Shown one piece after another: positions 36,073 to 38,950 of a stretch of 64,000 nucleotides of DNA. Below the pieces are notes generated by a model. The model made no database searches. It was not told the DNA's origin and saw only the letters and a list, made by a program, of their open reading frames with translations. The stretch spans positions 1 through 64,000 of the forward strand of contig JANWUV010000005.1 of assembly GCA_025057975.1 (NCBI GenBank). The letters are read 5' to 3'. The position numbers were made by a program, and so were the translations under genes. The stretch is from Chloracidobacterium sp. GTDB lineage: Bacteria; Acidobacteriota; Blastocatellia; Chloracidobacteriales; Chloracidobacteriaceae. Position 1 is the stretch's first letter; every line of letters begins with the position of its first letter.

Positions 36073-36344
36073 AAACACCCCCATTTCACTGTACAAGTTA
36101 CAACGAGGTTAGTGGATGCTAGGCGGCTTGTCAAGTTTCTTGCGCGCCGCCGCCTAACGGCGCGCAAGAAGCCGCCACGGCGGGGTGAAATTTGTGCTTT
36201 CTGAAGAAGTGGGTTGTGTCGTTTCCAAAAGTGTACGAAAATGTACTTAACCGTCGAGCATCCACAGGCTCTGACGAGTCTCGTCCCCGGCGGCTTCGGT
36301 CCGCTGACGACCGGCGGAGACGCAGCCGCCACGGGAGTTTCGCC

Positions 36345-36944
36345 ATGTCGGCGCCAATCGCCAAAACGTTCGATAGTATTGTTCACCACCTCAACGCGCG
36401 GACTGAGCAGAACGGAGGCGGGCTGCCGGTGACGGAAACCGACACGTTCCGCACTCTGAACTTTTCACTCATGCTCAGTATCTCGCACTACATTGAAGAC
36501 CGCTTCATCGAGAAGGGGCTTTCAGGCCTCTTTATCGCCTCGTTTCAGAAGTTATCGCTGTTTTTGCCGCAGCAGGAGCGGTACGCCACCATCGCCAAGA
36601 CCTCGCAGGCGGTCTGGATTATCGGCGAACCGGACATTACACCGCCTGCTGTAGCAGAGCGCATTCGGTTTTTCCGTCCCGCCGACTGTGAGTGCCAAGA
36701 CTACTGGATTGTTCTCAGCGATGATCCTCGTTTCCGCATCGCCCTATTTGCCCGTGAACGACGGGATACCGCCCGCCCGGCGGCGTCCGGCAAGAACGGT
36801 TATGCTAGGGGCAAGCGAAGCTTCGAGGGGTTCTGGACCTACCGGGATGAGTACATAGACGCCATCCGCAACAGCGTTCAGACGCACTACGCCCGCCCAG
36901 AATACTTGGTCTTACCGCAAACGGACACCTTAGTGGTTTCCTAA
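36345..36944 (+). CDS. Stand-alone DICT sensory-domain protein
   Basis: A 199-residue soluble protein that matches the DICT domain pattern: LMLSISHYIEDRFIEKG, LFIASFQKLSLFLPQQERY, AVWIIGEPDITPP, then DYWIVLSDDPRFRIALFARE and FEGFWTYRDEYIDAI. DICT is a sensory domain found with diguanylate cyclases and two-component proteins and linked by context to light responses. Here it is alone, with no output domain. The ATG at 36345 follows GGGAG. The gene converges on the ubiquitin-like gene; whether they work together is unknown. The 270 bases between the tRNA-Gly and this start hold no other gene. Confidence 0.65.
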   Translation: MSAPIAKTFDSIVHHLNARTEQNGGGLPVTETDTFRTLNFSLMLSISHYIEDRFIEKGLSGLFIASFQKLSLFLPQQERYATIAKTSQAVWIIGEPDITPPAVAERIRFFRPADCECQDYWIVLSDDPRFRIALFARERRDTARPAASGKNGYARGKRSFEGFWTYRDEYIDAIRNSVQTHYARPEYLVLPQTDTLVVS

Positions 36945-36966: not shown

Positions 36967-37212
36967 CTAACCACCGCGCGTGTTGAGGAAGATCCCAATC
37001 GTGTCCCCGGAAACGACGCCGACCTGAGCCAGCGTTTGGTGGGGACGTAACTGCACATTGCGGAAGACAAGCGTTGTGCCCGGTACGTTTGGAATAATGC
37101 CGGCCTCCACGAGGTTTCGCACAATGGCGTCCGCCGTCATATCGTCGGAAACGGTAACTTCAACTTCCTTCCCGTTGTTTTCGTTGCGAAATGTAACGTC
37201 AACATCCGCCAT
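36967..37212 (-). CDS. Ubiquitin-like beta-grasp protein ending in Gly-Gly
   Basis: An 81-residue protein beginning MADVDVTFRN. The strand-strand-helix-strand pattern of ubiquitin is visible: two strands in residues 4-22, a helix at TADAIVRNLVEAG (26-38), a strand at TTLVFRN, the turn VQLRPHQTLAQVGVVSGDTI (53-72), and a last strand IGIFLNTRGG. The protein stops directly after Gly80-Gly81, so no protease is needed to expose the tail. Helix and turn resemble the YukD/EsaB group more than MoaD/ThiS, but the free GG fits activation by an E1. The E1-like gene is two genes upstream on the same strand. It is probably the activated or conjugated component of the set at 36967-38950. Target unknown. 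Confidence 0.8.
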   Translation of the reverse strand: MADVDVTFRNENNGKEVEVTVSDDMTADAIVRNLVEAGIIPNVPGTTLVFRNVQLRPHQTLAQVGVVSGDTIGIFLNTRGG

Positions 37213-37248: not shown

Positions 37249-37572
37249 TTACAGGGTGTAATGGCGACAACGGGTACAGTACCCTGTTTGCGCCTCAAAA
37301 CGGTCACCCTGGTGGCAAACTTCGCACCGCGCTGGGCGTTCAGCGCGTCTGACCCGAAAGGTCTGCGCCGAACCATCAAACCGGGCAAGGCCGTAGGTGC
37401 GCTGATGCAGGTCCGCGTAGTAGCGACGCGGCAGCAGCAGGGAATCGCTCGATTGGCGGCCGTCTTCAAGCGCGCGGCGTCCGTCGTAATAAAGCTCATA
37501 GACCTCAAAGCCGCAGGACACGACGAAGATCAGAAGGAAGAGCAATGTCCCGAGAACCGCTACGCCTTCCAT
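37249..37572 (-). CDS. Membrane-anchored zinc-ribbon protein in the ubiquitin-like set
   Basis: A 107-residue protein. One transmembrane helix at about residues 4-25 is followed by a polar linker with acidic and Arg patches. A C-terminal putative zinc site has CEVC (83-86) and CTRC (99-102), with His at 87 and 104. Two CxxC pairs 12 residues apart could form a zinc ribbon; a full RING cross-brace (eight ligands) is not present. The gene lies between the E1-like and ubiquitin-like genes (gaps of 70 and 36 bases). An adaptor that brings the system to the membrane is possible, but no known family is recognised. AAAGGAC precedes the ATG. Confidence 0.7.
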   Translation of the reverse strand: MEGVAVLGTLLFLLIFVVSCGFEVYELYYDGRRALEDGRQSSDSLLLPRRYYADLHQRTYGLARFDGSAQTFRVRRAERPARCEVCHQGDRFEAQTGYCTRCRHYTL

Positions 37573-37642: not shown

Positions 37643-38950
37643 CTAACTAGCGCTAGTTTTTTCTCGACCGCTGCCCGCCTCAGCACGTCCCCAATCGCCG
37701 AGCGTTGTCGCCAGATCACCCGTCAACTCACATGACCAGTAACGTCCCTGTCGATCTTCGACCGTTAGAATATGCAACGGGGGGATGCCAAGTTGCCGTA
37801 ATGTACGCTCCGCCGTGTCATCCGTCAGCGGTTGGTCACCGAAGCGATGACGTGAAAAACGAGTAACGACCTCAATATAGCTTTCTCTTTCATAGCTTTC
37901 TTTGGCGGGCGTGCGTAACGACTCACTTATAGCAGAAGCGTTAGCGGTTTGACAGGGCGCACAGATCAACTCGTCGTCATAGAGCTGGTGCGCCGCTCGT
38001 TCAATCACGAGCGAACACCCACAACGACGGCAGGCAATGCGCCGGATGTAGCGCCGGTCGAGATGCACCTGCACGCCGTCACCCAGCGTCTCCTCCAAAA
38101 CATCAAGCGTCTGTTCCAGCGTGGCGTCTGCGCCAAGCGGCAGCTCAATGACGGTCTCAAGGCGACCGTGGGCAAGGCAGTACGGATCGTACGGCAGCGT
38201 GATGGCGTGAAACCCATGCGTCCAACCGTTGTAGACATAGCGCACGCCAAAGGCGACCGGCTCACCGTGAATGACTTTCAGCGCCTCCTGAACTTGCAGC
38301 GCCGAGGTTAACGCCGAGGTTACTTGGATGGTGGGAAGACGCTCCTCCGCAAGGTAACGCCGCCGTACCTGCTCGCAGGAGTCGTAGCGTGAGCGTGCAT
38401 CGGCAATCTGGTCGGGCGTCGCTGCGCAGGCAAAGCAGGGCCCTTCATCCGGCGCAAAGACCGTGATGCTTCCGGTCAATTCGTGCATCCCGGCATTGAT
38501 CCAAGGAACGCCGACGGCGCGGGCGGCCCGGTTAATGCTCAATCGCGCTTCGTCGTTATCGACGCAGCCCAAGATCAGGTCAACCCGCCGAAAAACCCCC
38601 AAACCGACATCCCATACCAAGTCGGCATCCAGCGCGCGCACACCGCTGGTGGCCTCACGGCACAGAGCCTGCACCCGCTCAGCAGCGACCAGCGCCTTCC
38701 GCCGCCCAATGTCGGAAGGATGGAAGAACACTGTCCGGCTAAGGTTGGAAGGCGCAATGTCGTCGTTGTCCACAATCAACAACCACCGTGCGCCTAGCAG
38801 CGCTAAGTTCTTGAGGGTTTCATTGCCTAGCGCCCCGGCTCCGGCCACAAGGATACGCACCGACCGGAGCGTCTCCTGTCGCCACCAACCCAATCGTTCT
38901 TGCCGGTCAAAGAGAGACTCCACAGGTGACGCTTCCGCCGAACCTTTCAT
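37643..38950 (-). CDS. ThiF/E1-like ubiquitin-activating-type enzyme with extra zinc ribbon
   Basis: A 435-residue protein. Residues 12-230 are the E1/ThiF/MoeB adenylation domain: VAGAGALGNE (35-44), VDNDDIAPSNLSR (60-72) with the nucleotide Asp and Arg finger, DIGRRKA (80-86), GCVDNDEAR (128-136). CFAC (172-175) is the first half of the zinc site. Cys192 in DSCEQV stands near the place of the E1 catalytic Cys. The second zinc half appears as CLAH (258-261), CxxH in place of CxxC. A C-terminal region with an added zinc ribbon (CRRCGC 307-312, CAPC 330-333) and about 100 further residues is not seen in MoeB or ThiF. It would adenylate the GG tail of the nearby ubiquitin-like protein. No E2 or JAB gene is adjacent. 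Confidence 0.85.
   Translation of the reverse strand: MKGSAEASPVESLFDRQERLGWWRQETLRSVRILVAGAGALGNETLKNLALLGARWLLIVDNDDIAPSNLSRTVFFHPSDIGRRKALVAAERVQALCREATSGVRALDADLVWDVGLGVFRRVDLILGCVDNDEARLSINRAARAVGVPWINAGMHELTGSITVFAPDEGPCFACAATPDQIADARSRYDSCEQVRRRYLAEERLPTIQVTSALTSALQVQEALKVIHGEPVAFGVRYVYNGWTHGFHAITLPYDPYCLAHGRLETVIELPLGADATLEQTLDVLEETLGDGVQVHLDRRYIRRIACRRCGCSLVIERAAHQLYDDELICAPCQTANASAISESLRTPAKESYERESYIEVVTRFSRHRFGDQPLTDDTAERTLRQLGIPPLHILTVEDRQGRYWSCELTGDLATTLGDWGRAEAGSGREKTSAS

Follow-up and report, generated by a model that had tools for sequence, protein, structure and literature searches.

Is the short ubiquitin-like protein encoded at this Chloracidobacterium locus the modifier of a conjugation system, and which of the known families does it resemble most? 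The gene (36967..37212, minus strand) lies in a stretch of 64,000 nucleotides, the whole of which is called the window here. It encodes a ubiquitin-like modifier (Ubl) of 81 aa with one lysine (K15) and the C-terminus ...GIFLNTRGG, the codons of Gly80-Gly81 (36970..36975, minus strand) being followed directly by the stop codon TAG. The Ubl gene is single-copy in its genome and is the last of a minus-strand set that also encodes an E1-like activating enzyme of 435 aa (37643..38950) and a membrane zinc-ribbon protein of 107 aa (37249..37572), with 36 bp between the Ubl gene and the ribbon gene upstream and 70 bp more to the E1 gene. A preliminary description had placed the gene next to an E1, which is correct in that an E1 gene is close by, but the ribbon gene separates the two. 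Its basic observation of a ubiquitin-like protein with terminal Gly-Gly is borne out by the open reading frame, a match to the Pfam family Rad60-SLD, the predicted ubiquitin fold, and the conservation of the protein. Convergent with the Ubl gene is a plus-strand DICT-domain gene (36192-36944; PF10069, 3.9e-10), which is also found beside the Ubl gene at loci L008, L009, and L010 and is without a match at L011-L013. A likely ribosomal protein S1 gene (label assigned by eye) adjoins in conserved synteny in five genomes (window, L008-L011).

By Pfam, the Ubl stands between SUMO-like and YukD models. The highest-scoring family is the SUMO-like Rad60-SLD (2.5e-6, 27.6 bits, above the cut-off of 23.8), followed by YukD (4.6e-5, 24.5 bits), where it stays below the cut-off of 27 and thus outside the YukD/EsaB family as delimited there, and by ubiquitin (0.0025, also below cut-off). 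No sulfur-carrier family (ThiS or MoaD) was among its Pfam matches at E <= 1. A homologue in a Nitrospirota MAG (L091), with 34% identity to the Ubl, does pass the YukD cut-off (1.8e-7, 32.2 bits). The AlphaFold2 model of the Ubl (pLDDT 90.5) has a ubiquitin (beta-grasp) fold and aligns to ubiquitin (1ubq) with a Z of 12.6 and an rmsd of 1.7 over 76 residues at ~20% identity (VIA-align). Caldiarchaeum ubiquitin (CsUb, 6fj7) is its fourth Foldseek match among the matches listed (TM 0.81), and no YukD-, ThiS-, or MoaD-named entry occurs among the best 50 Foldseek or the best 50 VIA-align matches listed. The predicted fold is, among these matches, nearest to ubiquitin, and the Ubl as a whole stands between YukD, SUMO-like proteins, and ubiquitin. 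The protein had been described as nearer to YukD/EsaB than to MoaD/ThiS, and a leaning in this direction holds because YukD is matched in Pfam, ThiS and MoaD are absent, and the Nitrospirota relative passes the YukD cut-off. YukD as the nearest relative does not hold, as Rad60-SLD scores higher and the predicted fold fits ubiquitin best; the Foldseek comparison that had been proposed as a check placed Caldiarchaeum ubiquitin fourth, with none of the names YukD, ThiS, or MoaD among the matches listed.

Gly-Gly is present in 14 of 14 orthologues but is the true C-terminal end in only three of them, from the window's genome (G000), G165, and G303, the number of residues after it being 0, 0, 0, 1, 1, 1, 7, 8, 9, 10, 11, 16, 19, and 21, where the 16 belong to G123 and the 21 to G063. 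The single-residue tails, found in three genomes, consist of A, S, and H, and the tails of the 11 orthologues (1-21 residues) are without mutual similarity. As conservation and selection stop at Gly-Gly, the Ubl reads as a trimmed precursor. The Gly-Gly typical of conjugated modifiers is thus free in three and tailed in 11 of the 14 orthologues, and its exposure in the latter by trimming is predicted. That the protein ends in Gly-Gly with nothing after it is accurate for the window and common to only three of the 14, and the further claim that no processing peptidase would be needed fails for the family: it applies to these three only, because the other 11 carry tails, and an Rpn11-type JAMM protease is encoded in 7 of 7 genomes tested. 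Orthologues ending without Gly-Gly, named in the preliminary description as evidence against its reading, do literally occur (11 of 14), yet the C-terminal alignment finds Gly-Gly within all 14. Two distant relatives are without it: L091 ends in DAG and L105 in VAGSFQC. For Caldiarchaeum, Rpn11 has been shown to cut the ubiquitin precursor of that organism exactly behind Gly-Gly, so that nine residues come off (PMC6043591).

All three cognate enzymes of a conjugation set, E1, E2, and JAMM, are present in 7 of 7 genomes tested. The E1 matches ThiF (4.3e-46) and also ThiF/MoeB models, and it has a C-terminal extension with CxxC pairs; the best match of its profile to PDB sequences is the SUMO-activating enzyme SAE2 (1.3e-31). 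Cys192 in the motif RYDSC (codon 38375..38377, minus strand), invariant in seven aligned E1s, is the candidate thioester cysteine. The E2 is encoded beside the Ubl gene in G267, where the adjoining gene product contains the active-site motif FHPHVWPDGKICVGNW; E2s were found in 7 of 7 genomes tested, the other six being 65-72% identical to the G267 protein, and that of the window's genome lies outside the window (C5:213352-213897). Cys95 and HPH within the motif HPHVWPDGKxC are invariant in the seven aligned sequences, HPH standing where classical E2s have HPN. The match to Pfam UQ_con is below cut-off (5.4e-5), and UBE2W-like E2s are the best PDB sequence matches of the E2 profile (4e-4). The E2 model is of low confidence (pLDDT 50.2, pTM 0.45) but has the UBC helix-strand order, and each of the 50 Foldseek matches listed, at low TM-scores, is an E2 or an entry that includes an E2. 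Both features of a UBC protein, the fold and an active-site cysteine after HPx, are therefore present, the fold on a low-confidence model. In a neighbourhood conserved in four genomes (L071:6502-7898, L073, L076, L077), the E2 gene and a ubiE/menG-like methyltransferase gene (by eye) are divergently oriented.

All seven genomes tested likewise encode a JAB/JAMM protease bearing the motif WYHTHPGFGVFMSGTD, in the window's genome on contig C20. The E and HxHx7SxxD residues of Rpn11-type JAMM deubiquitinases are invariant in the seven aligned proteins, and Caldiarchaeum Rpn11 is the best match of the profile to PDB sequences (2.4e-11). These E2 and JAMM counts refer to seven genomes, with G301-G304 outside the tested set. 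The arrangement of the genes varies. At two Blastocatellia loci (L088, L089) a single operon runs E1-ribbon-Ubl-E2-JAMM; L090 has the same order with one extra gene between E2 and JAMM; the G267 operon reads E1-ribbon-ribbon-Ubl-E2; E2 and JAMM genes are adjacent in G063 and G051; and in the window's genome both are far from the Ubl gene. At the sequence level, the parts, their conservation, their co-occurrence, and in some species their operon are thus in evidence.

We consider the Ubl to be the modifier of a ubiquitin-like conjugation cycle, to which we assign a probability of roughly 0.78 from sequence; this estimate covers JAMM trimming where needed, activation by E1, transfer to E2, and JAMM removal (steps 1-3 and 5 below). 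What we infer is the chemistry of every step, along with the trimming, a location at the membrane, and an E3 function, as follows. In step 1, the JAMM protease (JAB1/Rpn11-like) would cut the short random tail off the Ubl precursor after Gly-Gly in most species; in the window species and two others this trimming would be skipped because a stop codon directly follows Gly-Gly. The E1 would then adenylate the Gly-Gly end and take over the Ubl as a thioester, probably on Cys192 (step 2), and hand it to the E2, onto the cysteine of HPHVWPDGKxC (step 3). In step 4, the E2 would join the Ubl to lysine residues on target proteins, which probably happens at the inner membrane, with the operon-encoded ribbon protein and its paralogues acting as E3-like adaptors or receptors, and in step 5 the same JAMM would take the Ubl off its targets.

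The candidate E3-like or adaptor protein in the window has an N-terminal membrane segment, the peptide F-R-V-R-R, and a 4-Cys ribbon (CEVC...CTRC), and includes a 36-aa tag-plus-zinc-ribbon module (37252..37359, minus strand; profile A6), copies of which are found in many proteins of the order Chloracidobacteriales. No family in Pfam, NCBIfam, or PDB was found for the ribbon protein or its module (operon alignment against PDB, paralogues against Pfam); HypA, DZR_2, and zf-UBR were rejected, their scores being at chance level. A match in G037 was dropped, as its surroundings (L107) show no E1, Ubl, or JAMM by eye. At each of the 13 distinct loci of the order with both an E1 and a Ubl gene (window, L008-L013, L082-L084, L088-L090), a ribbon gene lies between the two. 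Of the 297 phylum genomes, the A6 profile hits 7, the same ones in which the Ubl was found, in a scan that scored at most 26 candidates per genome and may thus miss weak modules elsewhere. This co-occurrence is confounded, since the seven genomes belong to one order in which 14 of 14 genomes have both, and shared ancestry could suffice to explain it. The number of A6 copies at E <= 1e-6 in these 14 genomes is 2, 2, 2, 2, 2, 2, 2, 16, 44, 42, 37, 17, 11, and 4; Chloracidobacterium has one ribbon paralogue besides the operon gene (G000 C6:128661, L121). The module is N-terminal, as in 56 of 57 distinct A6 ORFs examined a start codon falls at most 25 residues before the first cysteine. At least one membrane segment is predicted after the module in 49 of 52 complete A6 ORFs, and others have ankyrin repeats. 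The family members at loci L117-L125 and L129-L148 differ in their membrane or ankyrin domains, and their genes often form tandem clusters.

A short peptide, F-x-[VI]-[KR], links the ribbon proteins with the enzymes. It precedes the ribbon (with K, R, N, or Q in the last position in operon proteins), has two copies in each of the 10 E2s examined from the order, in a C-terminal tail that is otherwise variable (some of these E2s end in RRTFLIRK), and occupies residues 3-6 in 10 of 10 JAMM proteins. It also occurs at the E1 N-terminus in G051, G063, and, with Leu, at L088-L090, whereas five E1s (window, G165, G123, G096, and G267) do not have it N-terminally. A further E2 copy at position 108 is inside the folded domain and probably unrelated to the tail peptides. 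In 27 terminal or juxta-ribbon segments we counted 29 occurrences, compared to a mean of 1.46 and a maximum of 7 in 5000 shuffles, a test that is post hoc because the peptide was noticed beforehand and whose members are related. Among background ORFs of the same loci, the peptide is present in 4 of 226 first-20 and 3 of 226 last-20 stretches. The 57 ribbon paralogues comprise 19 with F-x-[VIL]-[KR], 28 with another hydrophobic residue in place of F, and 10 with neither form. Similar peptides are found at the Nitrospirota locus L091, in the E1, the E2, and a membrane protein that has FSIR plus a zinc ribbon at its end. In two other acidobacterial clusters the shared short peptide is a different one: the E2 and the product of the preceding gene both have ITFKP near their C-termini (L106), and E2 and JAB have RIKLG in common (L108).

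These shared peptides suggest a docking code. We tentatively put the ribbon proteins forward, from operon position and co-occurrence within the one order, as E3-like adaptors or receptors, at somewhat less than even odds. About as open to doubt is the competing explanation that the ribbon family and its peptide are unconnected with the Ubl and represent a lineage-specific domain of the same order. It would fit with the restriction of all 14 module-bearing genomes to one order and with the Nitrospirota genome, which has a related operon without any A6 match or a ribbon gene between E1 and Ubl; moreover, the peptide was defined after being seen, and both the 10 paralogues with neither form and the window's E1 are exceptions to it. 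It would have to account for the position of the ribbon gene between E1 and Ubl at 13 of 13 loci of the order, for 29 peptides in segments where shuffling gives 1.5, and for the Nitrospirota operon having its own membrane protein with FSIR and a zinc ribbon. A wider extension of the adaptor role is rather unlikely, namely that a membrane-centred Ubl network exists in which one F-x-[VI]-[KR] code would gather enzymes, ligases, and substrates around a large repertoire of E3-like proteins or receptors, as many as 44 per genome and most of them membrane-spanning. Within such a network, it would probably be the acidic face of the Ubl that recognises the code, by analogy to SUMO and its interaction motifs, and, if true, this would be, to our knowledge, the first bacterial many-member family of ligases or readers for a native ubiquitin-like tag.

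The distribution and conservation of the Ubl bear on the purpose of the conjugation cycle. The Ubl was found at E <= 1e-4 in 7 of 297 genomes of the phylum, being absent from the other 290, and once each in all 14 genomes of the order Chloracidobacteriales examined. IFLNTRGG is conserved in 14 of 14 orthologues, 49 of 81 alignment columns are invariant, and each orthologue has exactly one lysine, K15. With this single lysine, any Ubl chain would need linkage through K15 or the N-terminus. With 81-91% identity to the window protein, the Ubl is the slowest-evolving member of the set (E1 50-76%, ribbon protein 27-65%), and between the window and G063 it is 84% identical, compared to 67% for the neighbouring S1-like ribosomal protein (label by eye). 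Its pN/pS of 0.018-0.146 (10 pairs among five congeneric genomes), with heavy synonymous change and rare amino-acid change, indicates strong purifying selection. Judging from these sequences, the Ubl system is vertically inherited and core to the order.

Defence systems are usually patchy and mobile, and work on ubiquitin-like conjugation in bacteria has to date been concerned chiefly with patchy systems of phage defence. That the system described here is a conjugation system of the Bil, Bub, or CBASS type modifying phage or defence proteins is improbable. The enzyme classes are the same and PADLOC models match weakly (E1 5.3e-13 to an E1-E2 model, E2 8.5e-4, JAMM 0.0019), but the E1, E2, and JAMM matches are partial, the Ubl and the ribbon protein have none, and the NCBIfam 6A-MBL score is far below cut-off. 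One copy in each of the 14 genomes, synteny with the likely S1 gene in five genomes, the dispersal of the parts to distant loci in Chloracidobacterium, and the strong purifying selection also argue against it. Housekeeping modification of membrane proteins may be the purpose rather than phage defence, which is the least certain step of our proposal.

Even less probable is a sulfur carrier of the ThiS/MoaD/Urm1 type, in which the E1 would adenylate Gly-Gly for a sulfur donor to form a thiocarboxylate used in cofactor or tRNA synthesis, with no protein tagging. E1, Ubl, and JAMM are known from sulfur-carrier pathways and the E1 matches ThiF/MoeB models too, but the Ubl is without a ThiS or MoaD match, and sulfur carriers do not use an E2, which here is conserved in 7 of 7 genomes and belongs to the same operon in several. 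The genome also encodes two other ThiF-family E1s (C7:22703-24153 and C2:225051-225773), one of them beside a JAB gene, which probably serve ordinary cofactor pathways. A YukD/EsaB-like structural factor that acts without conjugation, e.g. in secretion, and whose Gly-Gly is incidental, is hardly credible, as the YukD score just under cut-off and the Nitrospirota relative above it are set against an IFLNTRGG that is invariant in 14 of 14 orthologues and followed by random sequence, and against a dedicated E1, E2, and JAMM. None of the six proteins around the Ubl gene that were put to Pfam is a type VII/ESX secretion component.

Among known systems, the conjugation cycle proposed here shares with that of Caldiarchaeum subterraneum (CsUb, E1, E2, RING, CsRpn11) a Ub-fold precursor with residues past Gly-Gly, an E1, an E2, and an Rpn11-type JAMM, but it is bacterial, and a mononuclear membrane zinc ribbon takes the place of a RING, none of which was seen in the operon. 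The modifier is also more distant from ubiquitin (~20% identity) than CsUb, for which 31% is published (PMC6043591). Parallels to the SUMO system are the SUMO-like Rad60-SLD as the best Pfam match of the Ubl, SAE2 as the best match of the E1, and a recurrent short hydrophobic strand motif recalling SUMO-interacting motifs; here, however, the motif is basic instead of acidic, the protease is a JAMM rather than a SENP-type enzyme, and the E1 is a single chain. Bil, Bub, and CBASS-associated conjugation (Cap2/Cap3) also uses bacterial E1/E2/JAB machinery, whereas the present system is not patchy within its order and matches PADLOC and NCBIfam models weakly. YukD/EsaB proteins (PF08817) have the beta-grasp fold and a weak sequence match in common with the Ubl, which differs in its Gly-Gly tail and its E1/E2/JAMM partners. 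In Iyer et al. 2006 (PMC1779556), YukD is reported as not conjugated, and bacterial E1/E2/JAB/Ubl operons are described.

An order-wide, single-copy, and highly conserved modifier with E1, E2, and JAMM offers a good natural system for studying ubiquitin tagging and its origin outside eukaryotes. Because the order to whose core the set belongs has a cultivable member genus, Chloracidobacterium, three questions become testable: the housekeeping use of native ubiquitin-like tags in bacteria, the evolution of precursors in which Gly-Gly is exposed or hidden, and the replacement of RING ligases by zinc-ribbon proteins as E3s. The members of the expanded ribbon family can be taken directly as candidates for ligases, readers, or substrates. 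Among the papers listed in a literature search there was no account of such a system in Chloracidobacterium or Blastocatellia, which we do not equate with absence from print; within the literature searched, the order-wide core status, the mix of free and tailed Gly-Gly, the expanded ribbon family, and the shared peptide appear to be new.

The evolutionary idea behind a YukD-like Ubl with a conjugation-ready tail is reportedly already in print: Burroughs, Iyer and Aravind are said to have predicted in 2011 the conjugation of YukD-like Ubls in bacteria, with RING E3s. Those clusters reportedly contain a bacterial E1, E2, JAB, and YukD-like Ubl as well, but here Gly-Gly is invariant, the system belongs to the core of an order, and the position of the RING falls to a zinc-ribbon family. 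Clusters of this general kind were found in other Acidobacteriota (L104, L105, L106, L108) and in Nitrospirota (L091). The Nitrospirota operon (L091:2716-9557) encodes an E1, the YukD-like Ubl ending in DAG, an E2, a protein of 714 aa that combines a JAB domain with a second E2-like stretch, and a membrane protein whose zinc ribbon is C-terminal. An acidobacterial E1-Ubl-E2-JAB set (L104:5265-7720) lies beside type VI secretion-like genes (by eye), and its Ubl ends in EGGLR, i.e. Gly-Gly plus two residues. Locus L106 (2977-8704) combines in one cluster a RING-like protein (by eye), an E1, a TIR plus Ubl-like protein, a Ubl-E2 fusion, and a JAB protein, and L108 (5117-8068) encodes a tandem-Ubl protein, an E2 with a C-terminal double zinc ribbon, and a JAB protein.
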